Below are positions 11,859 to 47,650 of a DNA stretch of 47,748 nucleotides, piece after piece. Position numbers and translations under genes: made by a program. Each line of letters opens with the position of its first letter. The stretch's first letter is position 1. The stretch covers positions 1 to 47,748 of the forward strand of contig CAMEJG010000010.1 in NCBI GenBank assembly GCA_945919465.1, given 5' to 3'. The DNA is from an uncultured Anaeroplasma sp. Its GTDB lineage: Bacteria > Bacillota_I > Bacilli_A > Acholeplasmatales > Anaeroplasmataceae. The notes beneath the pieces were generated by a model. It searched no databases, was not told where the DNA came from, and saw only the letters and a list, made by a program, of their open reading frames with translations.

Positions 11859-11876
11859 TATTAAGGGGAGAGTATT

Positions 11877-14800: not shown

Positions 14801-16265
14801 ATTTAGTAATAAAAACTTCTATAATAATTCATTAATTACTCTTCCAAGTGCGAATAAGCATCATAAAGGATTTGGTATTGATCATATTTATCTTAGTGAT
14901 GGAGCTTATGATTTAAAAACAAGAACTAATAGAAAAGAAGCAGAATATATTTCAGATTTAATTATTGAGCATTATAAAAATAGTACTCAATCATTAGGAG
15001 TTGTTGCCTTTAGTAAGGTTCAAGCTGAATTAATTAGTGATATGTTAGATGAGAAATTAACACATGAGGTTGAATTAAGAAGAACTATTGAAGCTATTAC
15101 ATATGAGCCATTATTTATAAAGAACCTTGAAAGTGTTCAGGGTGATGAAAGAGATAGAATAATATTTAGTATTTGTTATGGTCATAATGAATATAATAAA
15201 TTCTATCAAAGATTTGGACCTTTAAATAATTTAGGTGGAGAAAAGAGATTGAATGTTGCGATTACTCGTGCTAAATATAATATTACAGTAGTTACATCTA
15301 TACATTCTTATGAAATAAATACTAGTGATTCTTTAGGAGCTAATGCATTAAAGGATTATTTATATTTTTGTGAAAATGTATCTATTAATACAAATACAAA
15401 GCCTAGTGATAATGGTATTATTTTAAGTGTTAAAAAGGCTTTAGAGGATTTAGGATATATAGTTGATACTAATTATGGTTCTTCTTCAGTTAAAATTGAT
15501 TTAGCTGTAAAAGAGCCTAATAATGATAATTATATTTTAGCTATTATGCTTGATAAAAATGAAAATCCTCATGTATCTAGTGTTGCAAGATTAGAAGAAG
15601 CACTATTAAATAGATTAGGTTTTAAATATTTTAAGCTTTATACTTTAGCTTGGGTTAATGAAAGAAGCTTAGTATTAGAAGAAATATTAAATTTATTAAA
15701 AAGAAATACTAATGAGCATCATACGGATACTCATGTTAGTTTCTTAGAGGAAACTGAGGTAGAAATGACTGATTCTTTTATGAAATATGATTTTTATTCT
15801 ATTGAGGAGTGTAAAGATATTCTTAACCATAATAATATAGATTATTTGGTTTATAAAATAGTAGAAAGAGAACAACCAATTGTTAAGGATTATTTATATA
15901 AAAAGATAGCCTATACCTTAGATAAAACTAAAGTCACTAATGTAGTGAAAAATATGGTTAATCCTCTTATTAAGGATTTTTATTGTAGTAATAATGTTTT
16001 ATTTATTTCTAAGAAGGATTCCTCATTAAGAATATCTTCAGATAGAGGAATAGATGAAATACCTTTATGTGAGCTTGAAGATGGATTATATCAAATTATT
16101 AAAGCTAATTCTGGAATCACCATTATTGGAGCTTATAAGACTCTTATAAAGCTTTTAGATTTTAAGAGATTAACCGAAAATACTAAAAAAATTTTAGATG
16201 ATGCGATTGTAATGTTAAAATTAGATGGTAAAATAGTAGAAAGAGAAAATAAATTATTTGCTTAG
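11877..16265 (+). CDS. Giant SF1 helicase with DUF4011 and Vsr-like domains (copy A)
   Basis: 1462 residues. The N-terminal DUF4011-type region carries LLDLGKRNRLLNY near residue 12. The helicase core is split by a long helical insertion (about 350-850). Walker A GPPGSGKS is at about 289, DEAS at about 896, GDSKQLPP at about 921, VQGDERDR at about 1087 and RLNVAITRAK at about 1123, all intact Upf1-like SF1 motifs. At about 1190-1275 a degenerate Vsr/REase-like fold is visible (KIDLAV, ILAIMLD, LGFKYFKLYTLAWV), then a DUF3320-like tail beginning at EREQPI. A ribosome site GGGGAG precedes the ATG. This architecture is widespread and has been linked to phage defence in some surveys. The Vsr-like part lacks the common 'DG' after its second strand, so nuclease activity is doubtful. 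A paralogue follows after 11 nt. Confidence 0.85.
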   Translation: MVQYEDIYKHLLDLGKRNRLLNYKETGLRSINVLNKDIEYIFNSIDDYKEFSILQLDKILKKFHDTIDDPSCDIESYSKGKVYDIANASIKKTELICYKEGKPLDRVMKRLYQEYKFSIDEKGVNSLYFAFGFIKYNDLGQDFLAPILLIGIDLYKKNDVYKVKACEDDAILNPTLDYYFRVNKKIELPKYEDEGILAYFAKLRQNYSFEIIEEMGIGIFSFQKMNMYMDLKINKDIALENNNIKRLLGENIPNDDDLNLDIYPVVDCDSTQLEAIKQVAKGKSFILEGPPGSGKSQTITNLIATLIGNGKKVLFVSEKQAALNVVYENLKRVGLSEFALELHSNKANKKNFIDEVYKTAILPKYNVQIESINIKDNYEIITNEILDYYSALHEKYIDGKYSIYDLYNRYLKLDIEPIDYKIHCENYKLDSIDSICEVLDSYAREIKIFETNDYITIPLYGLINLSRNYLEYDFVNDINKSLFYLNKIKEIINNIDFIHINNHKINSVTDFYFAIDYCHVLNNLNYNTDSYFDNDAIALIEKTAISYIATNGSIKSNKIIDKYDSLVLDLDLANIYLILKEKENSFFKFLNKDYKNTYKKLLCYRKEVTKGKLSSEVRELIRYKDLCKQRDKDLNELKTFIPSLDEANVEKILDDIKSLKAINKCSLHTSINNIKDNILNALTSYHRYDNEYLRLDEIAKHYNPEILDVINTNIDLLISKLNSLLSYRDLFVNYLYLGNTIEKIKELKLIDYIDYCCEIDLDFNNLGLQFKKNYLHIYLINEIDKSNILYKFREASFNDKVNKFKELDIKIQDINVSTIISKNSMKRPDDFVCEGSSFKLLAKEYNKAKKQLSIRKLLDEIFDFIVDIKPIFLMSPLSVSTYLDNKKDLFDYVIFDEASQIFAWDAFGAIYRSKECVIIGDSKQLPPTNFFNASDTENEDEDSDIGESILSLASMTFISQALKWHYRSRSEELIQFSNKNFYNNSLITLPSANKHHKGFGIDHIYLSDGAYDLKTRTNRKEAEYISDLIIEHYKNSTQSLGVVAFSKVQAELISDMLDEKLTHEVELRRTIEAITYEPLFIKNLESVQGDERDRIIFSICYGHNEYNKFYQRFGPLNNLGGEKRLNVAITRAKYNITVVTSIHSYEINTSDSLGANALKDYLYFCENVSINTNTKPSDNGIILSVKKALEDLGYIVDTNYGSSSVKIDLAVKEPNNDNYILAIMLDKNENPHVSSVARLEEALLNRLGFKYFKLYTLAWVNERSLVLEEILNLLKRNTNEHHTDTHVSFLEETEVEMTDSFMKYDFYSIEECKDILNHNNIDYLVYKIVEREQPIVKDYLYKKIAYTLDKTKVTNVVKNMVNPLIKDFYCSNNVLFISKKDSSLRISSDRGIDEIPLCELEDGLYQIIKANSGITIIGAYKTLIKLLDFKRLTENTKKILDDAIVMLKLDGKIVERENKLFA

Positions 16266-16276
16266 GATGTGATTCT

Positions 16277-19200
16277 ATGACAGATCAAGAGGTATTAAAA
16301 AAATTATATGTTGTTACAAATCAGTTATTAGATTTAGGTAAACGTAATCGTTTATTAAATTTTAAGGATACTGGTTTAAAAACATTAATGCTTTTAAATA
16401 AAAATCTAGAAGAAATATTCCGTGCTATTAAAGGTGGAAGAGATTGTACAATTTTAGATATTGATCCTTATTTAAATGAATATCATAATCAAGAATTAAT
16501 AAATAATCCTAATGATAATATCTTAGAATATAGTAAAGAAAAGGTATATGAAATTACTAGAAAATATCTAGAAGTTAGACAATTATTATGCTATAAAGAG
16601 GGATTTAATCTTCAAAGAGTATTAAAATCTCTAAAAAAAGATTTTACTAATTCTATTATTGAAAAGGGTATTAATGCTTTATATTTATCATTTCAATTTA
16701 TTCATTATATAGAAGAAGAGGTAGATTATTACGCTCCATTAATGTTAATGCCTATTGAAATATCAAATGAATCAGGAGGTTTTGTTATTCATCAATATGA
16801 AGATGAAATAATAATAAATCCTACTTTAAAATATTATTTTAGTTCTGTTTATAATGTAGAATTTCCTCCATATCAGGATGAAGCTTTTTCTAATTATGTG
16901 GAAAAAGTAAGAACAATTCTTCCTCCTGAAATGGAAATGATAGATGGAGCTGCTTTAGGTATTTATTCATTTTATAAAATGAATATGTATAATGATTTAA
17001 TTTTTAATAAAGAAACAGTTATTAAAAATAGAAACATTAGATATTTATTAGGTGAAGAACAACGTGAATTTGACCCCGAGATAAATAATCCAGTATTCCC
17101 AGTAGTAAATTGTGATTCCTCTCAATTTGAGGCAATACAAATGGCAGCAGATGGAAAATCATTTTGTCTTGAGGGGCCTCCGGGTAGTGGTAAGAGTCAA
17201 ACAATCACTAATATTATTGCCTCTATGCTAGGAGTAGGAAAGAAAATACTATTTGTATCTGAAAAGATTTCAGCTTTAAATGTAGTATTTGAAAATTTAA
17301 GAAGAGTCAGACTATCTGATTTTGCGATAGAGCTTCATTCTAATAAGGCTAATAAGAAGGATTTTATTGCTCATTTATATAAGGCTGCTACTGCACCTAA
17401 ATATAATATGGATTTCAAATCTCAATTTATTGAATCTAAATATAAATTATTAAAATCAAGCTTAAGCTCATATGAAGCAGAAATTAATCATATTATTCCT
17501 AGCTTAGGTGTTTCTTTATTAGATATTTATTCTTTATATTTTAATATTAATTTAGAGCCAATTGAAAAGGATTTTAATTTTAGTGATTTAAATTTATATG
17601 ATTTAGAAAATATCTCTAAAACATTAAATGATTATATGGGCTATGCTAGAGATATTTATGATTATAGAAATAATCCCTTCTATTATTTTAATTTAGAAAA
17701 TGGATTGAATTTAGATAATATAAATAGAGTATTATATCATTTAAATACAATAATTGAATATAAGAATTCAATAAATTCAATACTAAAAATGAATTTAAAG
17801 GATTTAAAATCTATTTATAATATATTAAGCTTTTTTGATGTATTATTTTCTTTAAAAAGCTTCTCTCCATTTTATTTAATTAAGAAAGTAAGAATAAAAC
17901 TAATAGATTCTATTGAAAAATATCAAATAATATTAAAAATACTAAAAAATGAAACTTTAGCCTTATATGATCAAAAAATATTAAATGAACCAATTGAGGA
18001 TTTAGCTAATATATTAAATAGAGAGCTTCAAAACAAATCCTTATTTAAATCTAAGGAATTAAAGGAAGTATATAATAAATTAGTAAAATATCGTAAGGTA
18101 GCTATTAAGCCAGAAGAGCTTAGTAAAGAGCTAAAGGAATTAATTATAGTTAAAAAGAATCTTATTCTTTCTAAGGAATATATTAGTTTTATAACTAAAT
18201 ATTTAGGACCAATTAAGGATTTAAATTTAAAACAAATTATTTTAGATTTAAAGAAATTAGAAGGCTTTGATGATTATTTAATTAGTGAAGAGGCATATAC
18301 TCTCTTAAGAGAAAAAATACCTTTAGAAACAATATCAGCTGAGCCAATGAAAAGTGATATTATTTTCTTAGATAATATTATTAATAATATTGATATAAAA
18401 AAGCTTGATATTAAAGAATTATCATTAGAGGATTTATATGCCTTTTTAGTTCAAGTATCTGAAAATAGAAGCAATTTAAGTTTATATATGCATATTAATA
18501 ATATTGTTAATGATATTACTAAATATGGAGTAATAGATTTCTTAGATGAATATTTAGATTCTAAATATGAACTTGATCATATAGATCAAACATTCAAGAA
18601 AACTTATTATTACTATGTTATTAAAACCGCATTTTCTTCATCCTCTTCATTAGGTGAGTTTGATAGTCATAAAAGAGAAAGAATTGTTAATGATTTTAGA
18701 GCTCTAGATGAAGAAATGTTTCAGATTAATAGAGATATAATTATATCTAAAATGTCAAAGAAAAGACCTAATTTAAGCTTAGTAGAGGGTTCTAAATTTA
18801 AGATTCTAGATAAAGAATATAATAAGCTAAGAAGACAATTACCAATAAGAACCTTATTAGATCAAATCTTTGATTTTGTATTAGAAATTAAACCAGTATT
18901 TTTAATGTCACCTCTTTCAGTATCTACTTATTTAACTAGTACTCTTAATTTATTTGATTGTGTAATATTTGATGAAGCTTCTCAAATATTTGCCTCAGAT
19001 GCCTTAGGATCTATTTATAGAGGTAAACAATGTATTATTATTGGAGATACTAAGCAAATGCCACCTTCAAATTTCTTTATGGCTAGTGTTGATAGTGGAT
19101 TAGATGGAGAAGAGGAAAGAGAATATGATTTAGAATCGATTCTTGATAAGGCTATTCAGGTATTCCCTACAACCTCATTAAAGTGGCATTATAGAAGTAG

Positions 19201-20719
19201 AAGTGAAGAGCTAATTACTTTTTCGAATCATAGTTTTTATCATGATGGATTAATTACTATTCCCCAGGCTACGACTCATTCTACTGGTTTTGGAGTTGAT
19301 TTTTATTACTTTCCTGAGGGAAGATACGATATGACAACAAGAACTAATATTTATGAGGCTCAAAAGATTTGTAAAATGGTATTTGAGCATTATAAAAATA
19401 GTTCTCAATCTTTAGGTGTTGTAGCATTTAGTAATGTTCAGGCTGATTTAATTTCTTCATTAGTTGATAAGGAATTAAAGAAACATCCTAATTTAGCTAG
19501 ATTTTTTGATGGATCTACAGATGAGCCATTTTTTGTAAAGAATCTAGAAACAGTACAAGGTGATGAAAGAGATAGAATTATTTTTAGTATTTGTTATGCA
19601 TATAATAATGAAGGTAAATTTTATCAAAGATTTGGACCATTAAATAATGCTGGTGGTGAAAGAAGATTAAATGTTGCTGTAACAAGAGCTAAATATAATA
19701 TTAGTATTGTTTCTTCTGTAAGATATACAGATATAAATACTAAAACAAATTCAAAGGGAGCTTTATTATTAAGGGATTATTTAGAATTTGCTGAGCATAT
19801 TCTAAATAAAAAGAATTATGCACCTAGTAATGATGGTCTAATATTATCTATTAAGAAATATATTGAAAGCTTTGGCTATGAAGTATATACAGATTATGGT
19901 AATAGTGCCTTTAAAATTGATTTAGCAGTTAAAGATAAAGATAAATTTATTATGGCAATTATGTTAGATTCTTCTAGCAGCTACTCTTCAAACATAACAG
20001 ATAAATATCGTTTAGAAAAAATATTATTAAAGAGATTAGGCTGGCGTTATTTTAAACTATATACTACTGCTTGGGTACAGGATAATGGTGAAAAGGAAAG
20101 GTTATTAGAGGCATTGCGTTCTAATGAAGAGGAAGAAGAGATAAGCGAAGAGCTTAAGAGCTTCTTAGAGGAAGATGAATCATTAGATACTCTAGAAGCT
20201 AATTTCGATGTCTATGATCCAATTGGAGTACCTAGAGGAAAAAGAATTCTTAATGAATATGATTTAGAATATTTAATTCAAGAAATAATTTCTTATGAGG
20301 CTCCTATTCATGAAGATTTTTTAGCATTAGAAATAGCTAATATTTATGATAAGCCAAAGCCAAATAAGGAAATATTAGATATGATTCATGATAATATGCC
20401 GAAAAGAGTATTAAAGCTAGGTGAATTCTTTTATAACAAAAGAATTTCAGGTATAACTATGAGATTAGAATCTAATCGTGAGGCATATCAAATTCCACCA
20501 GAAGAATATGCAAATGGATTATTAGTTATTGTTGGTAAAAATAACGGTATTACTGTTGATGGAGCTTATCGTACTTTAGTTAAGCTTTTAGGCTTTGATA
20601 AGGTACTTGCGAATACAAGAGCGATACTAGATGATGTATTAAATGATTTAATAAGAGATTCTAAAATAATTAATAAAAATAACAATTTATATATCCCTGG
20701 AAGTTTTATTGAAAGATAA
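16277..20719 (+). CDS. Giant SF1 helicase with DUF4011 and Vsr-like domains (copy B)
   Basis: 1480 residues, colinear with the preceding gene. LLDLGKRNRLLNF lies near residue 16, Walker A GPPGSGKS at about 300, DEAS at about 899, GDTKQMPP at about 925, VQGDERDR at about 1093 and RLNVAVTRAK at about 1130. The Vsr-like segment (KIDLAV, FIMAIMLD, LGWRYFKLYTTAWV) starts at about 1214, and a DUF3320-like tail starts near SYEAPI. The helicase cores are strongly conserved between copies, but the central helical insertion is much more diverged. This suggests an old duplication with different partners or substrates rather than a recent one. It is almost certainly in one operon with copy A and ends at a strong terminator. 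Confidence 0.85.
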   Translation: MTDQEVLKKLYVVTNQLLDLGKRNRLLNFKDTGLKTLMLLNKNLEEIFRAIKGGRDCTILDIDPYLNEYHNQELINNPNDNILEYSKEKVYEITRKYLEVRQLLCYKEGFNLQRVLKSLKKDFTNSIIEKGINALYLSFQFIHYIEEEVDYYAPLMLMPIEISNESGGFVIHQYEDEIIINPTLKYYFSSVYNVEFPPYQDEAFSNYVEKVRTILPPEMEMIDGAALGIYSFYKMNMYNDLIFNKETVIKNRNIRYLLGEEQREFDPEINNPVFPVVNCDSSQFEAIQMAADGKSFCLEGPPGSGKSQTITNIIASMLGVGKKILFVSEKISALNVVFENLRRVRLSDFAIELHSNKANKKDFIAHLYKAATAPKYNMDFKSQFIESKYKLLKSSLSSYEAEINHIIPSLGVSLLDIYSLYFNINLEPIEKDFNFSDLNLYDLENISKTLNDYMGYARDIYDYRNNPFYYFNLENGLNLDNINRVLYHLNTIIEYKNSINSILKMNLKDLKSIYNILSFFDVLFSLKSFSPFYLIKKVRIKLIDSIEKYQIILKILKNETLALYDQKILNEPIEDLANILNRELQNKSLFKSKELKEVYNKLVKYRKVAIKPEELSKELKELIIVKKNLILSKEYISFITKYLGPIKDLNLKQIILDLKKLEGFDDYLISEEAYTLLREKIPLETISAEPMKSDIIFLDNIINNIDIKKLDIKELSLEDLYAFLVQVSENRSNLSLYMHINNIVNDITKYGVIDFLDEYLDSKYELDHIDQTFKKTYYYYVIKTAFSSSSSLGEFDSHKRERIVNDFRALDEEMFQINRDIIISKMSKKRPNLSLVEGSKFKILDKEYNKLRRQLPIRTLLDQIFDFVLEIKPVFLMSPLSVSTYLTSTLNLFDCVIFDEASQIFASDALGSIYRGKQCIIIGDTKQMPPSNFFMASVDSGLDGEEEREYDLESILDKAIQVFPTTSLKWHYRSRSEELITFSNHSFYHDGLITIPQATTHSTGFGVDFYYFPEGRYDMTTRTNIYEAQKICKMVFEHYKNSSQSLGVVAFSNVQADLISSLVDKELKKHPNLARFFDGSTDEPFFVKNLETVQGDERDRIIFSICYAYNNEGKFYQRFGPLNNAGGERRLNVAVTRAKYNISIVSSVRYTDINTKTNSKGALLLRDYLEFAEHILNKKNYAPSNDGLILSIKKYIESFGYEVYTDYGNSAFKIDLAVKDKDKFIMAIMLDSSSSYSSNITDKYRLEKILLKRLGWRYFKLYTTAWVQDNGEKERLLEALRSNEEEEEISEELKSFLEEDESLDTLEANFDVYDPIGVPRGKRILNEYDLEYLIQEIISYEAPIHEDFLALEIANIYDKPKPNKEILDMIHDNMPKRVLKLGEFFYNKRISGITMRLESNREAYQIPPEEYANGLLVIVGKNNGITVDGAYRTLVKLLGFDKVLANTRAILDDVLNDLIRDSKIINKNNNLYIPGSFIER

Positions 20720-36841: not shown

Positions 36842-36941
36842 TTTATCACCTTTTTTCGCTACCTATTATAACTTATATTTTAATATAAAGGAAATATTTT
36901 TATTTATTTTATTAATTAATATTTCATCTGATTGTTGCTTA

Positions 36942-36971
36942 TTGACTTTTCACATATTAATATGTTAGTAT
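36942..36971 (+). promoter_or_regulatory. Probable promoter of the hydrolase-phosphatase-TIR unit
   Basis: TTGACT (36942-36947), an 18-nt spacer, then TAGTAT (36966-36971). It lies in the gap between the divergent U32 gene and the unit. The -10 box matches 4 of 6 positions. Confidence 0.5.
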
Positions 36972-37031
36972 TTAAGTAAACATATGTATTCAATACTAAT
37001 TCAATATATCAAATTAATAATGGAGATAATT

Positions 37032-38405
37032 ATGCTCACTTTATATATAACAATCTCTTTGTTTTTTTTCTTATTTATTTTTATGAGAAAAAAAGAAAAT
37101 TTTATCACTGAAAAGATAAATAAATTACCTAAAATAGATTCAATAAGGCAGCAAAATATTTTTTTATATAAAAAAAATAATATAGAAAAAAAATTATTAA
37201 ATACAAAATATGAAAAAATTTATTGTGAATTTGTTTATTCAAATAAGTATACAACTAAAACAATTATTTGTTTTCATGGATATAAATCAAATGGTAAAAA
37301 CTTTATTTCAGGATTTTATGAATGTTATTGTAATAAAGAATTAGAGTATAATCTTTGTCTTTTTGATTTATTGGGATGTGGTTTAAGTAGTGGGAAACTG
37401 ATTTCAATAGGGAAAAAGAGTAATGTAATTATTAAACAAATTATAGAAGAATCGCGTAAAATGTTTGGCAATAATATTGAAATATATTTTCATGGAGTAT
37501 CATTTGGCGCATATAATGCTTTAAGATACGCAATAGATAATGATGATATAAATGGTTTGATTTTTGACAGCGGATTCATAGATGTTTATTCTCAAATAAA
37601 ACATATGCTACACTATAAAATTTATAAGATTTTTATACCTTTATTTAAATTATGGTATTTAGTATTTTATAGAGAAAATTATAAAAAATTAAATCTCACT
37701 AATAAAATAGAAACACTTAATATTCCTATATTAATTTTTCATAGTACAAAAGATAATATTGTACCATTTGAGAATTCAAAGTTGTTATTTAATAATTGTA
37801 AAAGTAAGAAAAAATTAGAAATATTTAATGAATCTGAACATTCATTAATGTGTTTTGACGACCCTTATAGATATAGAATTAATATTAAAAGATTTATAGA
37901 TAATAATCAGTATAAAAGAATAGCATTAATAGGATTTATGAGCTCGGGGAAAACAACCTTAGGGAAAATGATTTCAAATAAATATAATATAGATTATTTA
38001 GACATTGATGAAGAAATTGTAAAAGATACAAAAAAATCTTTGGATGAATTATTTAATGAATCTGAAGCTGATTTTAGAAAATTGGAATTGAAAAAATTAA
38101 TTCAATTATCTAATAATAACTGTGTTGTTTTATCTTGCGGAGGAGGTACTCCTCAAATAGTTGGTAGTTATGATTATTTAAAAAAATGGACCATTATATA
38201 TTTAGATATTTCAATTGAAACAGCATATATAAGGAGTCATGGTATAAAAAAATTTGCTCGTTCTTGGAATGGTTTTGAAGAACTATGTAAAAGTAGAAAA
38301 GAATTATATTTAGAAATGAGTGATTATGTATGTTCTACAGAAGGAGATTTGCATGAATCTTTTGAAAGACTTTGTAAAATAATAAATGAAAATAATTTAT
38401 TGTAG
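37032..38405 (+). CDS. Membrane-anchored alpha/beta-hydrolase fused to a shikimate-kinase-like domain
   Basis: The start at 37032 is preferred because GGAGA lies 5 nt upstream; the in-frame ATG at 36984 has no site. The 457-residue protein has one N-terminal membrane helix (LYITISLFFFLFIF). An alpha/beta-hydrolase domain (about 60-290) follows, with CFHGYKSNG as oxyanion region, nucleophile Ser157 in HGVSFGAYN, Asp in STKDNIVP, and His in ESEHSLMC. A kinase domain (about 298-457) has P-loop GFMSSGKTTLGK, LDIDEE, FRKLE and SCGGGTP. All shikimate-contact motifs are recognisable. This fusion is new to me. No other aromatic-pathway gene is nearby, so the kinase may use another small hydroxylated substrate. 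The next gene overlaps or abuts directly. Confidence 0.8.
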   Translation: MLTLYITISLFFFLFIFMRKKENFITEKINKLPKIDSIRQQNIFLYKKNNIEKKLLNTKYEKIYCEFVYSNKYTTKTIICFHGYKSNGKNFISGFYECYCNKELEYNLCLFDLLGCGLSSGKLISIGKKSNVIIKQIIEESRKMFGNNIEIYFHGVSFGAYNALRYAIDNDDINGLIFDSGFIDVYSQIKHMLHYKIYKIFIPLFKLWYLVFYRENYKKLNLTNKIETLNIPILIFHSTKDNIVPFENSKLLFNNCKSKKKLEIFNESEHSLMCFDDPYRYRINIKRFIDNNQYKRIALIGFMSSGKTTLGKMISNKYNIDYLDIDEEIVKDTKKSLDELFNESEADFRKLELKKLIQLSNNNCVVLSCGGGTPQIVGSYDYLKKWTIIYLDISIETAYIRSHGIKKFARSWNGFEELCKSRKELYLEMSDYVCSTEGDLHESFERLCKIINENNLL

Positions 38406-38420
38406 GTGATGGTTGTGAAT

Positions 38421-39197
38421 ATGGATATTAATATAATGCTAAATAATATAGAAGGTATTATTTATTCAGCATGTGATTTATTTTTAACTAACGGAATAAA
38501 TTCTTTTAAACATAAATCTACTAATGATATATTAACTGATACAGATATAAATATGCAGAGTTATTTAATAATGGAAATAAAAAAGCTATATCCTACAATT
38601 AGTTTTATTTCAGAAGAAAAAGACAACCAAGAATTGAGTGATGAATTAACTATATGTATAGATCCATTAGACGGAACTTGTAATTTTAGCTTAGGTCTTA
38701 CTATGTTTGGAGTTCAAATGGCTATATTTGAAAATAAGAATATTATTGCTTCAATAATATATTTGCCATATTATAAGAAATTATTTAAAACCATTAAAGG
38801 AAATGGAGTGACTTTAAATGGAAAAAGGATATTTCTTAATAAAGATATAAAACAAACAGAATCAATTTTATTATTATCTGATTTTTATCCAAAAATAGAT
38901 ATTAGTTTTGAAAAACAATTAAAATTAGTTCATAATTTACAGAGTCATTTTTTAAAAATAAGATTATTTGGTGCTGCTTGTTTTGATTTTGCTACTCTTG
39001 CTACATCAAAAGCCCAAGCTTATATTTGTTATTATAATGAAATATGGGATATTGCTCCAGGATTATTAATGATTGAAGAGCTGGGTATGAAATATAGTGG
39101 TTTTTATAAACCATATAAACTCAATGATTCTGCTCTAATAGTTGCTTTAAATGATGAAATATTAAATGATATAAAAAATACATTTTTTAAAATATAA
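38421..39197 (+). CDS. Inositol-monophosphatase-family phosphatase
   Basis: About 258 residues. Metal-binding motifs are intact: ISEEKD (Glu), IDPLDGTCNFSLG, and WDIAPGLLMIEELG near the C-terminus. The family dephosphorylates inositol phosphate, fructose bisphosphate, PAP or NADP. Substrate is not readable here. Several in-frame starts (GTG 38406, ATG 38409, ATG 38421) crowd the junction with the preceding stop. The ATG at 38421 has GGTGAT about 10 nt upstream and matches family N-termini best. Zero-gap coupling to the hydrolase-kinase gene and a 15-nt gap to the TIR gene indicate one operon. Confidence 0.85.
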   Translation: MDINIMLNNIEGIIYSACDLFLTNGINSFKHKSTNDILTDTDINMQSYLIMEIKKLYPTISFISEEKDNQELSDELTICIDPLDGTCNFSLGLTMFGVQMAIFENKNIIASIIYLPYYKKLFKTIKGNGVTLNGKRIFLNKDIKQTESILLLSDFYPKIDISFEKQLKLVHNLQSHFLKIRLFGAACFDFATLATSKAQAYICYYNEIWDIAPGLLMIEELGMKYSGFYKPYKLNDSALIVALNDEILNDIKNTFFKI

Positions 39198-39212
39198 AAG
39201 GAGGGGAAGAAA

Positions 39213-42041
39213 ATGAATAAAAAATTATTTATTAGTTATTCTCATAAATGTTTTACTGATGAGGTGTTTACTTTAGTAAAGGATTTAGAAATGAAGGGAT
39301 ACCAAGTATTTTATGATAAGGATGTATTAAAAAAAGGTGACTGGGAAAAAACTATAGATAATCATATTCGTGCTTGTGATTATTTTATTTATATGTCTTC
39401 ATTTGCTTCAAATTCTAATGAAGGATTTTGTTTAAATGAATTATGTAGAGCTGGTGAATTTGGAAAAAAGATTATACCTGTTTTACTAGATGAAAGCTTA
39501 TTACCATTGAGTATAAACAAATATCAACGATTATTCTTTTATAAATGTTTTACTAATAATGGAATTGATTCAATTAATTATGAAAAATTTTTTAATGAAT
39601 TAATAGATGCATTGAGTGATAAAGAATGGGGATATACTAATGATGATTTGAGATTAAGAAAAATTTTAGCCTTAGTTTCTAATCGCGTTGAACTTTATAA
39701 TCATTATTCTTCCTTTTGTGGAAGAAAAAAAGCTTTTAGTGATTTTGAAAAATTTATGAACTCTGATAATAATTTATTATGGATTCCATCCGGCCCTGGT
39801 TCTGGTAAAACTGCATTTGCTAGTATGCTATGCTGGAAATATCCCGAAAAAATAAAGGCTATTCATTTTTGTAAATTTAATAATTCAGATAAAATGGATC
39901 CTAAAAAAATTTTTGCATCAATCGCATATCAACTATCAGATGCTATTCCTGCATATAAAAGAAAATTATTAGATTTACCTGAATTAGATAAGATATTTGA
40001 AAAGAATGCTACTAGAATTTTTGAATATTTAATTTTAGATCCTTTGTATGATATTAGCTATAATGAAAATATAGGAGTAGTAATTGATGCATTAGATGAA
40101 TGTACTTGGGGTGGAAAAAATGATATGGCGAATGTTTTACAACGAGCTCTATCTAATAAATCACTTCCAAAATGGTTAAAATTTATTGTGACTAGTAGAG
40201 ATTCAATTGAGATAAGTAATCCTCTAAAAAATTATGCTACAATATCTTATTCATTAGAGGCTAATAATAATGAAGATATTTTAGAATATTATAAAAAAGA
40301 AATAGAAGGATTGACAGATGAAAAGGCTGAAATATTACTGGCAAAATCAGAAGGTTCTTTCTTATATGCTGCAGAGATTTGTAAAAAAATTAAAGAAAAT
40401 GAACTAGACCTTAATGAATTAGATTTGTTTCCTATAGGTATTTATGGATTCTTCTATGATTGTTTTTCTAGAATTTTTGAGAATAATACTACAAAGGATA
40501 TTTCCTTTGAAATAGCAAGACCTTACCTTGAAATATTATGTGTATCAAATATATCAATGAACATTGAAACTGTAGCTAATATTTTGGATTATGATTTATA
40601 TAAAGCTAGAAATATTGTTTCAACCTTAGCTAGCTTGTTTCCTTTGAAAAATAACTTAATACAACCACTTCATAAATCATTAGTAGATTGGCTGACTAGT
40701 GATGATATTTTACAAGTGTATTATATAGATAAGAAGAATGGATATTTTAGAATTTATAAATATATGAAAAATATCTATGATAATAAGAAGTATTATAACA
40801 ATTTATATGTTTTGGAAAATTTTGCATCAATTTTAATAGAATTAGAAAAATATGATGAATTAGAGAACCTATTGAATGATTTAGATTATCAAAAGAATGT
40901 TATCCAGACTATGCATTTTGATTCGGGATTAAGAAGATATTTAGAACAAATTCAAGCTTTAGATAATTATTCTCATGATAAAACAATTGAAGTGTTTAAT
41001 AATAATTCATTTATTCAAATATTTTCTTTATATCGAAGATTATTGTATAACTCTGGAATGTTTTTTGATTTAAGAAATCTTGGATTAACAAATGTTTTAG
41101 CAAGATCTATCGATTATGGTATGGAAGGCGAAATAGGAAAAGCATTTTATTACTATATTGTAGAAGAGTTTGAAAAGGCTATAAAGAAAATAAAAAATAT
41201 TGTTAAAACAGAAGAAATTAACAAATATCCTTATTATTTAGCTGAATTATATAATGTAAAAGGATTATCAGAAAGAAAACTCGCTTTATTTGATGATGCT
41301 ATTGAATCATTTGAAAAAGCTATTGATTACGCTAAAGAAGACAATTTTTCTTGTCCAAATAGTGAACCTAATTTTGAACTTTGCATGTCAAATCTTATTT
41401 TAGGTAAAATATACACTACAAAATGCAATTTTGCAAAAGCTAATCGTTATTATAGAAATTCTTTGAAAGCTATTGAACATCAAATAGAAGATACTGTTGA
41501 TAGAGATAGAAAAATTTCAGACATATTATTTACAGCAGAAATATATCGTGTATATGCATATTCTAAAATATGGGAAAATGAAATAGATGATGCTATAGAT
41601 TTATTAGAACAAGCAGATAAAATATATACTAATAATAAATCCACTTTAGATAGATATTTTGTGAGATTTCAATATACTTCAATCCTATTAAAAATTATGC
41701 AAAAGGATAAATTAGGAAATAAAGAAGCATTATTACTATTGTTAAATAATGGATTAAATGGAAAATATGATATAGGAATGGTTAATTATCTTTTAGCTTT
41801 AAATATCTTAATTAATTTCAATGATGATAAAGATGAAATTCGTGAGGGAATGAAATATGCTAATCTAGCATCAGATACTTTCTTTAGAATTGAAGCTTTA
41901 TTAGAAGATAATGAATCTAGATTAATACTAAACCTATTGAGTAAGAAACTTGGAATATCTAAAAAGCTTGATATTGATGATGTTGAAGAAATAGAAAACT
42001 GGATTGAATATATTAAAAATAGAATAGAAAATTTAGATTAA
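39213..42041 (+). CDS. TIR-NACHT-TPR STAND NTPase
   Basis: 942 residues with a strong ribosome site (AGGAGGGG). The TIR domain (1-135) begins KKLFISYSHK and retains the putative NAD-cleaving Glu76 in CLNELCRAGE. The NACHT-type NTPase follows, with Walker A GPGSGKT at 194-200, Walker B VVIDALDEC at about 290-298 and sensor FIVTSRDS. A winged-helix-like segment contains QPLHKSLVDWL. The C-terminal half is helical with TPR-like repeats (LYNVKGLSERKLALFDDAIESFEKAI; AKANRYYRNSLKAIE), a likely sensor. This is the layout of bacterial NLR-like antiphage proteins that oligomerise on sensing a phage component and deplete NAD. Its partners here are unusual. The operon ends at a strong terminator. Confidence 0.88.
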   Translation: MNKKLFISYSHKCFTDEVFTLVKDLEMKGYQVFYDKDVLKKGDWEKTIDNHIRACDYFIYMSSFASNSNEGFCLNELCRAGEFGKKIIPVLLDESLLPLSINKYQRLFFYKCFTNNGIDSINYEKFFNELIDALSDKEWGYTNDDLRLRKILALVSNRVELYNHYSSFCGRKKAFSDFEKFMNSDNNLLWIPSGPGSGKTAFASMLCWKYPEKIKAIHFCKFNNSDKMDPKKIFASIAYQLSDAIPAYKRKLLDLPELDKIFEKNATRIFEYLILDPLYDISYNENIGVVIDALDECTWGGKNDMANVLQRALSNKSLPKWLKFIVTSRDSIEISNPLKNYATISYSLEANNNEDILEYYKKEIEGLTDEKAEILLAKSEGSFLYAAEICKKIKENELDLNELDLFPIGIYGFFYDCFSRIFENNTTKDISFEIARPYLEILCVSNISMNIETVANILDYDLYKARNIVSTLASLFPLKNNLIQPLHKSLVDWLTSDDILQVYYIDKKNGYFRIYKYMKNIYDNKKYYNNLYVLENFASILIELEKYDELENLLNDLDYQKNVIQTMHFDSGLRRYLEQIQALDNYSHDKTIEVFNNNSFIQIFSLYRRLLYNSGMFFDLRNLGLTNVLARSIDYGMEGEIGKAFYYYIVEEFEKAIKKIKNIVKTEEINKYPYYLAELYNVKGLSERKLALFDDAIESFEKAIDYAKEDNFSCPNSEPNFELCMSNLILGKIYTTKCNFAKANRYYRNSLKAIEHQIEDTVDRDRKISDILFTAEIYRVYAYSKIWENEIDDAIDLLEQADKIYTNNKSTLDRYFVRFQYTSILLKIMQKDKLGNKEALLLLLNNGLNGKYDIGMVNYLLALNILINFNDDKDEIREGMKYANLASDTFFRIEALLEDNESRLILNLLSKKLGISKKLDIDDVEEIENWIEYIKNRIENLD

Positions 42042-42114
42042 ATAATAGTTCCTCAAATATTCCTTTAATAGAGAATAATAAGAGACTTAATATAATTTTA
42101 TAAAAAAATAATAT

Positions 42115-42156
42115 AAGTGATACATAAAATAAAAAAATGTATCACTTTTCCTTTTT
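42115..42156 (+). terminator. Terminator after the TIR-NACHT gene
   Basis: AAGTGATACAT (42115-42125) and ATGTATCACTT (42137-42147) form a perfect 11-bp stem with an 11-nt loop followed by a T-rich run. Confidence 0.88.
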
Positions 42157-42163
42157 AAAATAT

Positions 42164-42192
42164 TTGACTAAAATATAAAATATTGATAAAAT
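42164..42192 (+). promoter_or_regulatory. Promoter of the pectin lipoprotein operon
   Basis: TTGACT (42164-42169), a 17-nt spacer, then TAAAAT (42187-42192). A short inverted repeat CGTTT (42204-42208) / AAACG (42214-42218) just downstream of the -10 box could be a LacI/CcpA-type operator. That part is weak. Confidence 0.7.
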
Positions 42193-42242
42193 AAGTAATA
42201 AAGCGTTTCCAAAAAACGATTTAAACTTTTAGGAGGAATAAT

Positions 42243-43811
42243 ATGAAGATAAAGAAAAAAATTGGTATTATTTCAATGGCACTTGGATGTATTTTAGCAG
42301 TTGCATCCTGTGGAAATACTACCCCTACTGATGTAAGTAGTACTACTCAAGGGACATCAGTACCAAGTCAAACAACTTCTACAAAACCAAGTACACCTAG
42401 CTCCTCAACCACTCAAGGGGTTAAGCTATTATCAACAAGATTTAGTAGTATCTCTGTTGATTATTCTAATGTAAAAACATTGTATTATTTTGGTGAAGAG
42501 TTTTCATCAGAAGGTTTGGTTGTTAAAAATAACTTTGTTAAAAGCTATTCAAATGGAAAAAGAGAAAGCTATTCAGAAGAAACTGAATTATATTCAATAG
42601 ATACAAGTGAGGTTGATTTTAATACTGTTGGTGTTTACCCTGTAACTATTTCATCTAGAGTAGGCTCAGTAATTAATATGAGATCATATAATGTTGTTGT
42701 TAAGGCAAATCCTTTTGACGATGTGAAGAATTTATCATATTTTGGTGGATTAAATATTGAATACATTGCTGGAGATAGTTTTAATAAAACTTACAAGGTT
42801 CAAGATAAATTTAATTTTTCTAGTTCATTAGTAAAAGCATCTATTCATGTTGTAAAAATTGATGCAGAAGGAAATAAAACAGAAAATGATGCAACAACTA
42901 ATCCTCAAGCATTAACTATTGATACTTCTAATGTACCAGTTGATAGTAATGGTTATTTAACTACAAGAGGAACCTTTATAATAAAATATAGTTTTACTCA
43001 AAAGCTTACTATTGACGGAATTGAGGTTGAAAATAAGATTGAATCATTTACATACGTAACAGTAGATAATCCTGTTACTAACATTGAAAAGATTTCTGTA
43101 GATGATACAACCTTTGAAGCAACTATTACAAGTCTGGATTTATCAAAATGGAAATTTAGAGTAACTAGAGAAATTGGTGAACCAGAAGAAATTTATTATA
43201 GTAAAGATTTATTTACTGTTACTGGTTTAAATCAATACATACCAATGGAGCAAGAGGCTCAAATCACATTAAATGAAAGTCCAGAACAAATTGTTAAGGT
43301 TAAGGTTACTATTACTCCTTCTTCATTATATAATATTTTCTTACAATTAGATTTAAATAAGGGTATGGAAAAAGTAGATGTTAATGGAGATCCTGTATTA
43401 GATACTGAAGGCAATCCTACATATAATACACCATTTACTAATACTACAAGAACTCAAGTTGATTCTGATGGCTATTGTTATGGTACTAATATTGTAAGAG
43501 AAATTAAACCAAGAAATTGTGATGGTATTGGCTTTAGCGTTCGTGTTAAAGTAGAGTTATCATCAAAGAGTGGTGCCTTTGAGGTTGTAATGCCAAAGGC
43601 TGGTAAAATTTTAATTTTCGTAGCTTCAACAGGTGATGATGCAAGACCAGTTAATGTTTCATTAAATGATGAATCAATTACTGAAATTGTAGCAAAAACA
43701 AAGGATGTTCCAACTCGTTATGAAATTGATATTAAGGAAGCTGGTACTATAAGCTTTACTGGCGAAAAGCAATTCTATGTTTATGGTGCAATTATTGTAA
43801 CAGAGAGGTAA
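42243..43811 (+). CDS. Lipoprotein with Ig-like and carbohydrate-binding-like domains
   Basis: 522 residues with ribosome site AGGAGG. A signal peptide ends in lipobox AVASC (lipidated Cys23), followed by a Ser/Thr/Pro linker (about 25-60). A bacterial Ig-like module (YYFGEEFSSEGLVV...VGVYPVTIS) and a second related module follow. The C-terminal jelly-roll-like domain (about 410-522: GIGFSVRVKVEL, FEVVMPKAGKILIFVAS, GTISFTGEKQFYVYGAIIV) resembles carbohydrate-binding segments found beside polysaccharide lyases. No catalytic motif is seen. It is 5 nt upstream of the PL9-type lyase gene and most likely binds the same polysaccharide at the cell surface. Confidence 0.75.
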   Translation: MKIKKKIGIISMALGCILAVASCGNTTPTDVSSTTQGTSVPSQTTSTKPSTPSSSTTQGVKLLSTRFSSISVDYSNVKTLYYFGEEFSSEGLVVKNNFVKSYSNGKRESYSEETELYSIDTSEVDFNTVGVYPVTISSRVGSVINMRSYNVVVKANPFDDVKNLSYFGGLNIEYIAGDSFNKTYKVQDKFNFSSSLVKASIHVVKIDAEGNKTENDATTNPQALTIDTSNVPVDSNGYLTTRGTFIIKYSFTQKLTIDGIEVENKIESFTYVTVDNPVTNIEKISVDDTTFEATITSLDLSKWKFRVTREIGEPEEIYYSKDLFTVTGLNQYIPMEQEAQITLNESPEQIVKVKVTITPSSLYNIFLQLDLNKGMEKVDVNGDPVLDTEGNPTYNTPFTNTTRTQVDSDGYCYGTNIVREIKPRNCDGIGFSVRVKVELSSKSGAFEVVMPKAGKILIFVASTGDDARPVNVSLNDESITEIVAKTKDVPTRYEIDIKEAGTISFTGEKQFYVYGAIIVTER

Positions 43812-43816
43812 TTAAG

Positions 43817-46800
43817 ATGAAAAATAAAAAGAAATTATTAGGCTTAGGCCTATCATTAACAATATTAGTATTAGCTTCTTGTTCTCAAGCAGGTAATACT
43901 AGTACTACTTTACAATCTCCTACATCAACAGTTAGCCCAAGTACAACAACAAGTGTCCCTAATACAACAACAAGTATTCCTACAAGTGCACCTACAACAA
44001 ATGTAGAAGTTCATGTACCTACAACAATTTATGCTGCACCAGGGGCTAAAGATGGTGATGGTTCTAAGGAACATCCATATGATTTTTTTATGGCAACATA
44101 TAAGGCTCTTCCAGGTGATACAATTCTTCTAAAGGAAGGAGTATATGATGATTATAGCTATCGTATAGAGCTTCATGGAAGTGGTGCTCAGGGTAATTAT
44201 ATTACTATTAAACCTGAGGTTCCTGGTTCGAGAGTTGTTTTTGATTTTCATAAAATGAGATTTGATGGAACTAATAGAGGTATTCAAATTTATGGTGATT
44301 TCTGGCATATTCAAGATATTGAAGTATGTAATGCTGGAGATAATGGTATATATATTGCTGGATCTCATAATATAATTGAAAATTGTCAATTTTATAATAA
44401 TAAAGATACTGGTTTACAATTAGGACGTGGTTATAGTAATGAGACTCATATTGATGAGTGGCCTAGCTATAATTTAATTAAAAACTGTACATCATTTGCA
44501 AATTATGATGATGAAACTTTAGGTGAAAATGCCGATGGTTTTGCTGCTAAGCTTACTGTTGGTGTTGGTAATGTCTTTGATGGCTGTATCGCATTTAGAA
44601 ATTCTGATGATGGTTGGGATTTATTTGCTAAATCAGATTCAGGTAATATTGGTACTGTAATTCTATATAACTGTGTATCATTTGAAAATGGTTATCTACC
44701 ATACCAAATTGATAAACAAAATACTGATGGTACAACAACAAGAACCTATGATACTATTAATGGTGATGGTATCGGATTTAAATTGGGTGGTTCTGTTATG
44801 GAGGGTGATGTTATTGTAAATAACTGTGCTGCTTTTGATAATAAGCTTCATGGTGTTGGAGATAACTCAAATCCTGGTACATTACAGGTAACGAATTTCA
44901 CAGCATTTAATAATTGCTCAGGCTTAAATGCAGATGGTACTATTTCAACAAAACGTGGAATAGAGGATGCAGTTAATAAATCAAATAATATTGATTTAGC
45001 TCGTTCAACAAATAGCTATAATAGTTATTATGGTATTTTATCTTATATAAACAATCAAAGTGAATTTAAAGCAACAGGAGATTCAAATTATAATACTGAT
45101 GCTTATAGAGGCTCTACAGCTTATTCAATTTTCCAAACAGAATATGATAACGGTGAAATATATAGAGCATTTACTGGTTGGGAGGATGCATCAAGCTATG
45201 CTTCATTAACAGTAGATTCTGCATATTCTCGTGGAGAAATATATGAAGGATTAACTGATGATTCATTTGTTGATTTGAAATCAATTAATGCAATTTGTGA
45301 TTCAAAAGATAAATTAATAGATTTATTATCAATTCATACTAAATATAGAAATAGTGATAATTCTGTTAATTTAGGTAACTTATTAAAGCTTAAGGATGAA
45401 AAACTATTAACATATTGTGATGGAAATCCAATTGGTGCTGTATTAGATAGAACATCTTATGATTCATATCCACATTATACTATGAATATGTATGAAGATG
45501 AATCATATCAATCTATGTCTGATGATGAAATTTTAGTTTCATCAACTAAGGATGTTTTAGAGGTAATTACAAGAGAAGAAGCAACATTCCAAACATTTGA
45601 TTTACCTAAACTAATTAATGGCTGTGAAATTACATGGACTTCTTCAAATAATGATGTAATTGAGATTTCTAAAAATGAGGATGTTTCTTTATCTATTTCA
45701 GTATTTTCACAAGCAATAGTACATACTCAAGATACTGATACTAAGGTTACTTTAACTGCAACAATTTCTCATAATGATGTTGTTGATACAAAGACATTTG
45801 AAATTAATGTATTATCTAGAAAACAAGATGTAGGTTCATTAACTACCATTAAAAACAATTCATTAAGAATAGATTTATATGGTAAATATGTTGCTCCAAA
45901 CATCTATCCTATTGATGCATCAAGTATTACTCCTACAGAATTACCAAATAGCAAATATGATTTAGTTTATACTTATCAATATGCACCAGATGGAAATTCT
46001 AAGTTTAATTATATAGATGGTGTTTATACTTCAGTTGCAGGTGTATATCGTGTTACTGTTACAGCAAATTCAAAAATATCTTCAAATACTGCAAGCTATA
46101 CATACAATGTATATGTAGTAGACCCAGATTGTAATATTGATTTTATTGATAATATATCTAGCGTATATTTAACAAAAGATGGATTTAATATTTCTGGTAG
46201 ATTATCAAATATTGAAGGTGGAATTTATACTATAGTATCTGAAACTTCTATTGATGATATTACTCCAGAACAAGTAGTAAATAATGAAAATGCTCAATAT
46301 TATCATATTACTGAAGATAATATTATTGCGCCATTTAATGCAAATAATGATACATTAGTTGATAGTTCTGTTCAATATTATGTATATTATGTTGTTGCAA
46401 ATGCTAAGAAGAATTTATCAAAATTATCTTCTGTTTATTCATTTAGTACTACATTAAAGGAAGTAAACACAAAAGAAGATTTCTATAGTTTAGCAACTAC
46501 TGGTAAAATTGGTGCTGAAAAGGCTAAAACTCCTACAATTTATTATTTATCACAAGATTTAGATTTTGAAGGCTTCAACTGGCCAATTTTAAATAAAGCA
46601 AATGTTGATTCATTCAATCAATTATTTAATGGCAATAATCATACAATCTCAAATGTTACAATTGAGGGTGCTGCAGATGGTGAAAAGACATTAACTTTAA
46701 ATTTATTCTATAAGATTTCTTATGGAACTCTAATGAATTTCAAGTTCGATAACATTTCTATTACAAGTACTGATAATGAATCTACTAATTATGGTAAGCA

Positions 46801-47650
46801 AGTTGGTGTTGTTGGTGATTTACAAAATGGTTATCTTCATAACATTAGAATTACAAGATTTAAAGGTTCTGCAAAAGAGTCAGTTGGTGCTTTAGTTGGT
46901 CAAGTTACTGGTGGTAAGAATTATATTTCTAATTGTTCACTAGTTAACCCTATTCCAGAGGATGTAAATAATAATCCATATACAATTTCATGTACAAACA
47001 AGTATGCTGCAGGTTTAGTTGGTAACGCTCAAATGAATTCTGATCAATCATTACTTGAATTAACAATGACAAATTGTTTTGTAAATGCAGTAATTGGTGA
47101 TGGTAAGGATGTTGCCGGAAACTTCGGTGGTATCTTAGGTCGTGCTAAGAATGATAGCGTAAATTATTTAATCGATATTTCAAAATGTGTATTTATTGGT
47201 ACTGTTATTGCTAAGGGTCAATATAATGCTGGTATTGTTGGTGATTTTGACAATGGTGCTGGTTTAATTAGAATTAATAATTGTTTATCAGATGTAGTAT
47301 TTATTTATAATGGCTTAGTATTAGATGCTGAGACTGCTTTTGAAGAAAATACATCTCAATATTATGCACATAAGAATTCTAATCCTATTATTGGACGCGC
47401 AGTTAAGGGCGAAACTGGAATTTATCAATGTGGAAGTAATATAGGCTCATGGAGTGAATATTATGCAGATAGTGTTTATTCAATCTCTTTAGTGTTTGAT
47501 ATGAGAGATGATGAGACAAATGAACAAGAAATTCTATCAAAATCATATGTATCAGGAATATTAAAGCTTGACATTGAAAATGTATGGGTATTTAATCAAG
47601 TTTTAGATGAAGCTAAAAATCCTGTTGGATATGAATTATATTTAAAATAA
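43817..47650 (+). CDS. Pectate lyase lipoprotein, PL9-like, with Ig-like and GLUG-like modules
   Basis: 1277 residues. Lipobox LVLASC gives lipidated Cys22, followed by a Thr/Ser linker to about residue 70. A right-handed beta-helix (about 72-450) begins TIYAAPGAKDGDGSKEHPY and carries the PL9 signature ENADGFAAKL with candidate catalytic Lys245, plus DDGWDLFAK and the Asp cluster expected to bind calcium. Ig-like modules (about 575-860) follow, then a C-terminal GLUG-like beta-helix (about 900-1277: LFNGNNHTISNVTIEG, SVGALVGQVTGG, AGNFGGILGRA). It should cleave pectate or related galacturonan by beta-elimination outside the cell. It ends at a strong terminator, and its operon partner is the preceding lipoprotein. 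Confidence 0.85.
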   Translation: MKNKKKLLGLGLSLTILVLASCSQAGNTSTTLQSPTSTVSPSTTTSVPNTTTSIPTSAPTTNVEVHVPTTIYAAPGAKDGDGSKEHPYDFFMATYKALPGDTILLKEGVYDDYSYRIELHGSGAQGNYITIKPEVPGSRVVFDFHKMRFDGTNRGIQIYGDFWHIQDIEVCNAGDNGIYIAGSHNIIENCQFYNNKDTGLQLGRGYSNETHIDEWPSYNLIKNCTSFANYDDETLGENADGFAAKLTVGVGNVFDGCIAFRNSDDGWDLFAKSDSGNIGTVILYNCVSFENGYLPYQIDKQNTDGTTTRTYDTINGDGIGFKLGGSVMEGDVIVNNCAAFDNKLHGVGDNSNPGTLQVTNFTAFNNCSGLNADGTISTKRGIEDAVNKSNNIDLARSTNSYNSYYGILSYINNQSEFKATGDSNYNTDAYRGSTAYSIFQTEYDNGEIYRAFTGWEDASSYASLTVDSAYSRGEIYEGLTDDSFVDLKSINAICDSKDKLIDLLSIHTKYRNSDNSVNLGNLLKLKDEKLLTYCDGNPIGAVLDRTSYDSYPHYTMNMYEDESYQSMSDDEILVSSTKDVLEVITREEATFQTFDLPKLINGCEITWTSSNNDVIEISKNEDVSLSISVFSQAIVHTQDTDTKVTLTATISHNDVVDTKTFEINVLSRKQDVGSLTTIKNNSLRIDLYGKYVAPNIYPIDASSITPTELPNSKYDLVYTYQYAPDGNSKFNYIDGVYTSVAGVYRVTVTANSKISSNTASYTYNVYVVDPDCNIDFIDNISSVYLTKDGFNISGRLSNIEGGIYTIVSETSIDDITPEQVVNNENAQYYHITEDNIIAPFNANNDTLVDSSVQYYVYYVVANAKKNLSKLSSVYSFSTTLKEVNTKEDFYSLATTGKIGAEKAKTPTIYYLSQDLDFEGFNWPILNKANVDSFNQLFNGNNHTISNVTIEGAADGEKTLTLNLFYKISYGTLMNFKFDNISITSTDNESTNYGKQVGVVGDLQNGYLHNIRITRFKGSAKESVGALVGQVTGGKNYISNCSLVNPIPEDVNNNPYTISCTNKYAAGLVGNAQMNSDQSLLELTMTNCFVNAVIGDGKDVAGNFGGILGRAKNDSVNYLIDISKCVFIGTVIAKGQYNAGIVGDFDNGAGLIRINNCLSDVVFIYNGLVLDAETAFEENTSQYYAHKNSNPIIGRAVKGETGIYQCGSNIGSWSEYYADSVYSISLVFDMRDDETNEQEILSKSYVSGILKLDIENVWVFNQVLDEAKNPVGYELYLK

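Follow-up and report, generated by a model that had tools for sequence, protein, structure and literature searches.

The stretch of DNA analyzed here, which we call the window, is 47,748 nucleotides long and constitutes an entire contig of a metagenome-assembled genome (MAG; 2.1 Mb in 89 contigs). Three abutting, intact open reading frames (ORFs) on its plus strand span positions 36984-42041. They encode an apparently membrane-anchored fusion of an alpha/beta-hydrolase with a domain of the shikimate-kinase type (36984-38405; 473 aa), an inositol monophosphatase (IMPase)-family phosphatase (38406-39197; 263 aa) and a TIR-NACHT(STAND)-TPR protein (39213-42041; 942 aa). A first-pass annotation had described the same three adjacent genes, and its domain calls are confirmed by Pfam. 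It had also placed them between a promoter of their own and a strong terminator. The intrinsic terminator of the unit (42115-42156, plus strand) is convincing: an 11-bp stem at 42115-42147 (-11.4 kcal/mol; z = -5.5 against shuffles) is followed by a T-rich tail. A possible TG-extended sigma-70 promoter does lie upstream on the plus strand (36942-36971; TTGACT, an 18-nt spacer and TAGTAT), although this A+T-rich DNA holds no more matches of that kind than shuffled sequence does (48 found versus 53 expected).

The 5.2-kb unit sits at a variable chromosomal site, because the same flanking genes in a congener (G002, locus L137) enclose different DNA. The variable segment (36842-42242) is bounded on the left by a U32 peptidase gene and on the right by a lipoprotein/beta-helix gene pair (42243-43811 and 43817-47650). 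In the congener, which lacks the unit, two unrelated lipoprotein genes lie between orthologues of the U32 gene (61%) and of both right-hand genes (32% and 48%). The G+C content of the unit resembles that of the remainder of the window (0.237 versus 0.254), and therefore composition carries no mark of foreign origin. Phage and plasmid origins were considered and set aside, as no relatives were found among viral contigs or among plasmids. Elsewhere on the same contig, the genes at 10305-20719 look like a second defence locus. Two giant tandem genes (11877-16265, 1462 aa; 16277-20719, 1480 aa) match the PADLOC phage-defence candidate PDC-S37 with E-values of 5e-276 and 1e-288, and also match Hhe. 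The ORFs of the window include members of the DUF4011, AAA_11/AAA_12 helicase and MTES_1575 nuclease families, and a DrmC/PLD-like gene lies beside the giant pair at 10305-11858.

The TIR-NACHT-TPR protein, whose start codon is preceded by a strong ribosome-binding site, carries a TIR domain (residues about 4-135; 39222-39617), a NACHT/STAND NTPase domain (39690-40412) and, in the AlphaFold2 model, a C-terminal region of TPR-like helical repeats that is a candidate sensor (residues about 529-942; 40797-42038). Pfam recognizes TIR_2 (E = 7e-13) and NPHP3_N/NACHT (E = 3e-24), and the TPR match is weak. The earlier reading that Glu76 and both Walker motifs are intact holds for the window protein and extends to its relatives. 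Glu76, the catalytic glutamate (39438-39440), and its neighbors G71, C73, N75 and L77 are invariant among 17 TIR-NACHT sequences. The same is true of G196, G198 and K199 in Walker A (GPGSGKT, residues 194-200; K199-T200 at 39807-39812) and of I291, D292, L294, D295 and E296 in Walker B (VIDALDE, residues 290-296). When compared with the PDB as a profile, the TIR domain matches TIR-1, SARM1, AbTIR and TIR-APAZ, with E76 in the same alignment column as the conserved glutamate of TIR-1; by these matches it is closest to NAD+ hydrolases. Foldseek relates the whole AlphaFold2 model to the STAND-TPR protein 6mfv, to Avs3 and Avs5, and to the plant TIR-NLR RPP1. A fold search with the entire 942-aa model returned a list taken up by TPR matches, and the absence of TIR and NACHT matches from it is uninformative. 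The TPR part resembles domain III of MalT and the Rap TPR sensors (Z about 23-24), although matches between helical repeats call for caution.

The IMPase gene has an uncertain start. GTG at 38406 is merely the first start codon in frame, and GTG at 38415 or ATG at 38421 could serve instead. The protein matches Pfam Inositol_P (PF00459; E = 4e-38) and contains the EE, DPxDGT and WDxAPG-type motifs of this family, whose members are typically lithium-sensitive. The catalytic residues E70, E71, D86, D89 and D215 are intact in the window protein, and these five together with G90, T91 and W214 are invariant over 13 sequences. Since catalytic residues are invariant in the IMPase and in the TIR-NACHT protein alike, both are expected to be active enzymes. 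Among PDB structures, IMPases and SuhB resemble its AlphaFold2 model (pLDDT 92.5) at Z about 31, and 5eyh, an NADP-bound dual IMPase/NADP phosphatase, at Z 30. Such near-ties mean that structure does not discriminate among substrates; nor is the substrate given by sequence, because the fold is common to inositol, histidinol, nucleotide and NADP phosphatases. The protein scores below the NCBIfam equivalog cut-offs for IMPase (85.5 bits versus 332), HisN (82 versus 275) and CysQ (61 versus 229).

A profile search of genome contigs returned 28 loci, of which about 17 hold full-length or contig-end-truncated relatives of the TIR-NACHT protein. A search of the family of one further genome, G326, added two loci, one of which is L049 itself. 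All members come from MAGs, the relatives being Bacilli and Clostridia of gut origin, and TIR-NACHT identity falls as low as 29%. Fifteen loci are assessable (the window, L033, L036-L042, L044, L046-L049 and L063, with L046 and L047 near-identical); L043, L045, L050 and L051 stand outside the count because contigs end inside the gene. In every one of the 15 the IMPase gene directly adjoins the TIR-NACHT gene, either overlapping it or separated by no more than 16 bp, while the other neighbors differ. It lies downstream in 14, where the two genes often overlap by 4 or 8 bases, and the window alone has it upstream, ending 15 bp ahead of the TIR-NACHT start. G326, which holds the sole full-length relative in the class sample (31-33% identical), has an IMPase 49% identical to that of the window that begins directly past the TIR-NACHT stop codon. 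As controls we used 16 loci whose TIR-STAND proteins share the N-terminal part only (L026-L028, L034, L035 and L052-L062; L026 and L034 mark a single place, and five have flanks of just 1.5 kb). A profile search of the DNA available around them found the IMPase gene and the MBL-fold gene (see below) in none. Chance adjacency is ruled out by this linkage amid varying neighbors and by its absence from the controls. That the conserved core consists of two genes, those for the TIR-NACHT-TPR protein and the IMPase, is strongly supported.

The linked phosphatases are also distinct from other members of their family. When compared with 19 other IMPases from the same and related genomes, they form one exclusive clade (support 100/99), which rules out the idea that the gene is a housekeeping copy that happens to lie here. 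Across 12 genomes tested, matches to the linked IMPase have E-values of 1e-112 to 1e-127 and those to other IMPases 2e-40 or weaker; five of the 12, including that of the window, give no second IMPase match at E 1e-8. Across 336 genomes of the class and 166 from one Clostridia family, every clade member detected was accompanied by a TIR-NACHT gene. Moreover, distances among the TIR-NACHT proteins correlate with those among the IMPases (15 loci; r = 0.84, Mantel p = 5e-5), in part because the organisms themselves share descent. Linkage, exclusivity and co-divergence together bear out the association of this phosphatase with the TIR-NACHT protein that the first-pass annotation had proposed from a single locus. 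In the trees, the two window proteins are placed differently, the TIR-NACHT protein with Clostridia (support 97/99) and the IMPase with Bacilli (87/77). A tidy exchange of partners in the window was considered and not adopted, as the support for the IMPase placement (87/77) is too weak to claim recombination. The pair at 38406-42041, with its unique gene order and its discordant groupings, weakly supported for the IMPase, is perhaps a re-assembled one.

Two genes so strictly paired, so tightly coupled and diverging together would also suit a physical complex, in which the IMPase is a bound partner of the TPR/NACHT protein, acting as a guard, an inhibitor or an antitoxin-like cofactor, with catalysis secondary. 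There is precedent in SuhB, a NusA-binding protein that functions in transcription complexes according to PDB entries. Nonetheless, the catalytic residues of the IMPase are invariant at about 40% identity, which would be unusual for a purely structural role, and we regard this explanation as improbable.

The distribution of the pair is patchy. It is present in three of 246 genomes of one Clostridia family, and a full-length TIR-NACHT protein was found in the window genome and G326 only within the class sample of 395. Patchy presence and a variable site are as expected of defence genes. The protein might instead be a MalT-like metabolic or stress sensor that controls NAD turnover, the IMPase being its metabolic output or input. 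The resemblance of its TPR part to MalT domain III and the Rap ligand sensors accords with such a function, as does the location of most loci outside defence islands and known defence-gene surroundings, a point that weighs against an immune module in general. In addition, the nearest outsiders to the IMPase clade (E about 1e-65) are IMPase-HAD fusions beside a TrpB-like gene, to which those at L119 (297-1739) and L120 (835-2277) are translationally coupled. Against a non-defence role stand the retained catalytic glutamate of the TIR domain, the Avs/NLR-like architecture and the patchy, variable-site distribution just described, and we consider such a role unlikely.

The gene upstream of the core varies from locus to locus. 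In six loci, drawn from both clades, TIR-NACHT is immediately preceded by an MBL-fold gene of the same orientation (L036 7296-7970; L039 7318-7995; L043 7308-7985; L044 7318-7995; L045 96-770; L049 7319-8008). Its HxHxDH zinc motif is invariant in these loci, and in ten genomes tested the gene occurs only where it adjoins TIR-NACHT. The best PDB match is 7fct ("metal beta-lactamase"), followed by Apyc1 (7u2r/7u2s), and the nearest named families are Apyc1, a cyclic-nucleotide phosphodiesterase, and RNase Z. Like Apyc1, the product has an MBL fold and the HxHxDH motif, with the Apyc1 family (PF23023) as its best Pfam match; it differs in scoring below the Pfam cut-off (43-47 bits versus 50) and in being encoded by the host beside TIR-NACHT. 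Apyc1 degrades cyclic nucleotides, and host copies possibly regulate such signaling (Hobbs et al., PMC9117128). Other loci have a HAD phosphatase gene, two ATP-grasp genes, a ZIP-like transporter gene (by eye), or an unrelated gene or none in this position. At L040 (6303-8002), the two consecutive ATP-grasp genes are of the RimK-like ligase type and run directly into the TIR-NACHT gene. In the window, which contains no MBL-fold gene, the position is taken by the hydrolase-kinase fusion and then the IMPase.

The fusion protein has a hydrophobic N-terminus, a hydrolase part (Hydrolase_4/Abhydrolase_1, E = 3e-13, residues about 90-290) and a kinase part (SKI, E = 2e-25, residues 319-465; 90 bits versus a cut-off of 22). 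By eye, the protein retains a GxSxG-type nucleophile (GVSFGA) with candidate Asp and His residues further on; the P-loop GFMSSGKTT, the motif DID, and FR and GGG are also present. Its PDB matches are shikimate kinases (to E = 5e-17), and it falls below the NCBIfam shikimate kinase equivalog cut-off (68 bits versus 180). A separate shikimate-kinase-type gene lies elsewhere in the source genome (G000:C5). The fusion is absent from 54 further genomes of the family and from the class sample of 395, and no other TIR-NACHT/IMPase locus has it, or any kinase, in that place. It is therefore a private accessory gene of the window genome among the genomes searched, and conservation of all three genes as a unit was rejected on the same grounds. 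Of the two genes ahead of TIR-NACHT in the window, relatives thus lack the first and keep the second, normally downstream.

These findings bear on the original proposal of a kinase/phosphatase cycle, run by the fusion and the IMPase, through which the threshold for TIR-NACHT activation is set. The three genes do abut in one apparent transcription unit with a good terminator, and they form a block within the variable site. However, the varying upstream gene and the restriction of the fusion to a single genome leave a three-gene system of this kind very improbable, and a threshold cycle that depends on such a private kinase is unlikely to operate generally. The accompanying suggestion that a phosphorylated metabolite is processed fares better. 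It loses its kinase and gains from the putative Apyc1-like phosphodiesterase in six loci.

We propose a two-gene immune module in which NAD+ hydrolysis by the TIR domain is gated by the STAND protein and restrained by the IMPase acting on a phosphorylated nucleotide, and we give this reading about an even chance of being right. The module would have been acquired at a variable chromosomal site, where in the window a private accessory gene precedes it. The TPR region would recognize a sign of infection, whereupon the NACHT ATPase, like its STAND relatives, would oligomerize. The oligomer might then activate the N-terminal TIR domain, with NAD+ hydrolysis and aborted infection as the outcome suggested by Glu76 and the homology to SARM1. 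The IMPase would clear a phosphorylated signal or product enzymatically, such that the TIR domain fires only if formation outruns removal. Where the MBL-fold gene is present, its putative phosphodiesterase would act one step ahead of the phosphomonoesterase; the gene is missing from more than half of the loci, so such a two-step eraser is not general. The antiphage role, NAD+ cleavage by the TIR domain, and both the substrate of the IMPase and the direction in which it acts are predictions that we draw from sequence. We favor the direction of a brake or eraser because the recurring partners are a putative phosphodiesterase and a phosphomonoesterase, and because other defence systems offer a parallel, some reportedly being held in check by inhibitory nucleotide signals. 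Conversely, a TIR domain fused in cis to its own sensor needs no diffusible signal.

The main rival to a brake is conversion of NADP+ to NAD+. Here the IMPase would remove the 2'-phosphate of NADP(H) and so supply the TIR domain with substrate until both pools are exhausted, which would make it a part of the attack. The TIR domain is of the NAD+ hydrolase type and the IMPase active site is intact; furthermore, dual IMPase/NADP phosphatases of a Firmicute in complex with NADP (5eyh, 5eyg) match at Z about 28-30, and relatives match an NADP-phosphatase/NAD-kinase model (E = 1e-9 to 2e-11). Inositol-specific IMPases and SuhB match equally well or better, however, and a feeder leaves the MBL-fold phosphodiesterase of six loci unexplained. 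Other NADase defences are also generally known to function without such a helper. We judge this alternative unlikely.

Set against known systems, the unit fits the broad Avs/bNACHT-like kind of TIR-STAND defence by analogy of architecture. With Avs3 and Avs5 it shares an N-terminal effector, a STAND NTPase with both Walker motifs and a presumed C-terminal helical-repeat sensor; it differs in its TIR effector, its NPHP3_N-type NACHT domain and its obligate IMPase gene. Avs proteins are not known to have a partner of the IMPase type. Bacterial TIR NADases (AbTIR, TIR-APAZ, SpbK) and SARM1/TIR-1 have the same fold, with the catalytic glutamate in the same column, whereas here the TIR domain is in cis with NACHT-TPR and paired with a phosphatase. 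Plant TIR-NLRs such as RPP1 share the TIR-NB-repeat layout and a Foldseek match, but the window protein has TPRs in place of LRRs, a bacterial NACHT domain and no sign of a diffusible signal. As for Thoeris, PADLOC finds no ThsA-type effector, whether SIR2-SLOG or macro, among the three genes or the 25 other ORFs of the window, and the TIR domain is fused to NACHT-TPR. The IMPase itself has the full fold and catalytic motifs of 5eyh and of SuhB/IMPase, yet the linked IMPases are a separate clade seen only beside this TIR-NACHT family.

Swarozyc systems comprise DUF4062 TIR-like NADases, some reportedly in operons with diverse enzymes (PMC13174449). They too join a TIR-like NADase to a sensing domain, while the window protein is a canonical TIR_2 plus STAND protein in which Pfam detects no DUF4062. 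A different TIR-like/IMPase pairing occurs in the genome that holds L044: at L077 (1480-3288; G586:C12; also L115), a second IMPase, of another subfamily, lies 10 bp downstream of a DUF4062 gene and is followed by an RlaP nucleotidyltransferase gene. At L087 (854-3332; G269:C25), a gene for a DUF5919 protein overlaps an IMPase gene, which in turn overlaps a HAD gene; the DUF5919 N-terminus is possibly TIR-like, profile comparison giving a probability of just 20%.

Neither core protein is convincingly recognized by any PADLOC model, TIR-NACHT receiving weak TIR hits only, and neither the obligate IMPase nor the optional MBL-fold gene features in the PADLOC models tested. We likewise found no description in the open-access literature of an IMPase paired with a TIR domain, a STAND protein or an antiphage function. 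It is possible rather than probable that the pair represents an undescribed form of NAD+-targeting immunity, in which a TIR-STAND protein is obligately coupled to an IMPase and sometimes to a phosphodiesterase resembling Apyc1. The immune operon would then contain signal-eraser enzymes of the host's own, which would remove a phosphorylated nucleotide and so restrain the TIR domain or steer its product.

TIR and STAND immune proteins occur in bacteria, plants and animals alike, yet little is known of how the products that they derive from NAD are limited or processed. In the loci seen here, a phosphatase is always and exclusively inherited with one TIR-STAND family. It may therefore offer a direct handle on the control of NAD products, with one enzyme, one partner and two candidate substrates, namely NADP(H) or a phosphorylated product of the TIR domain.
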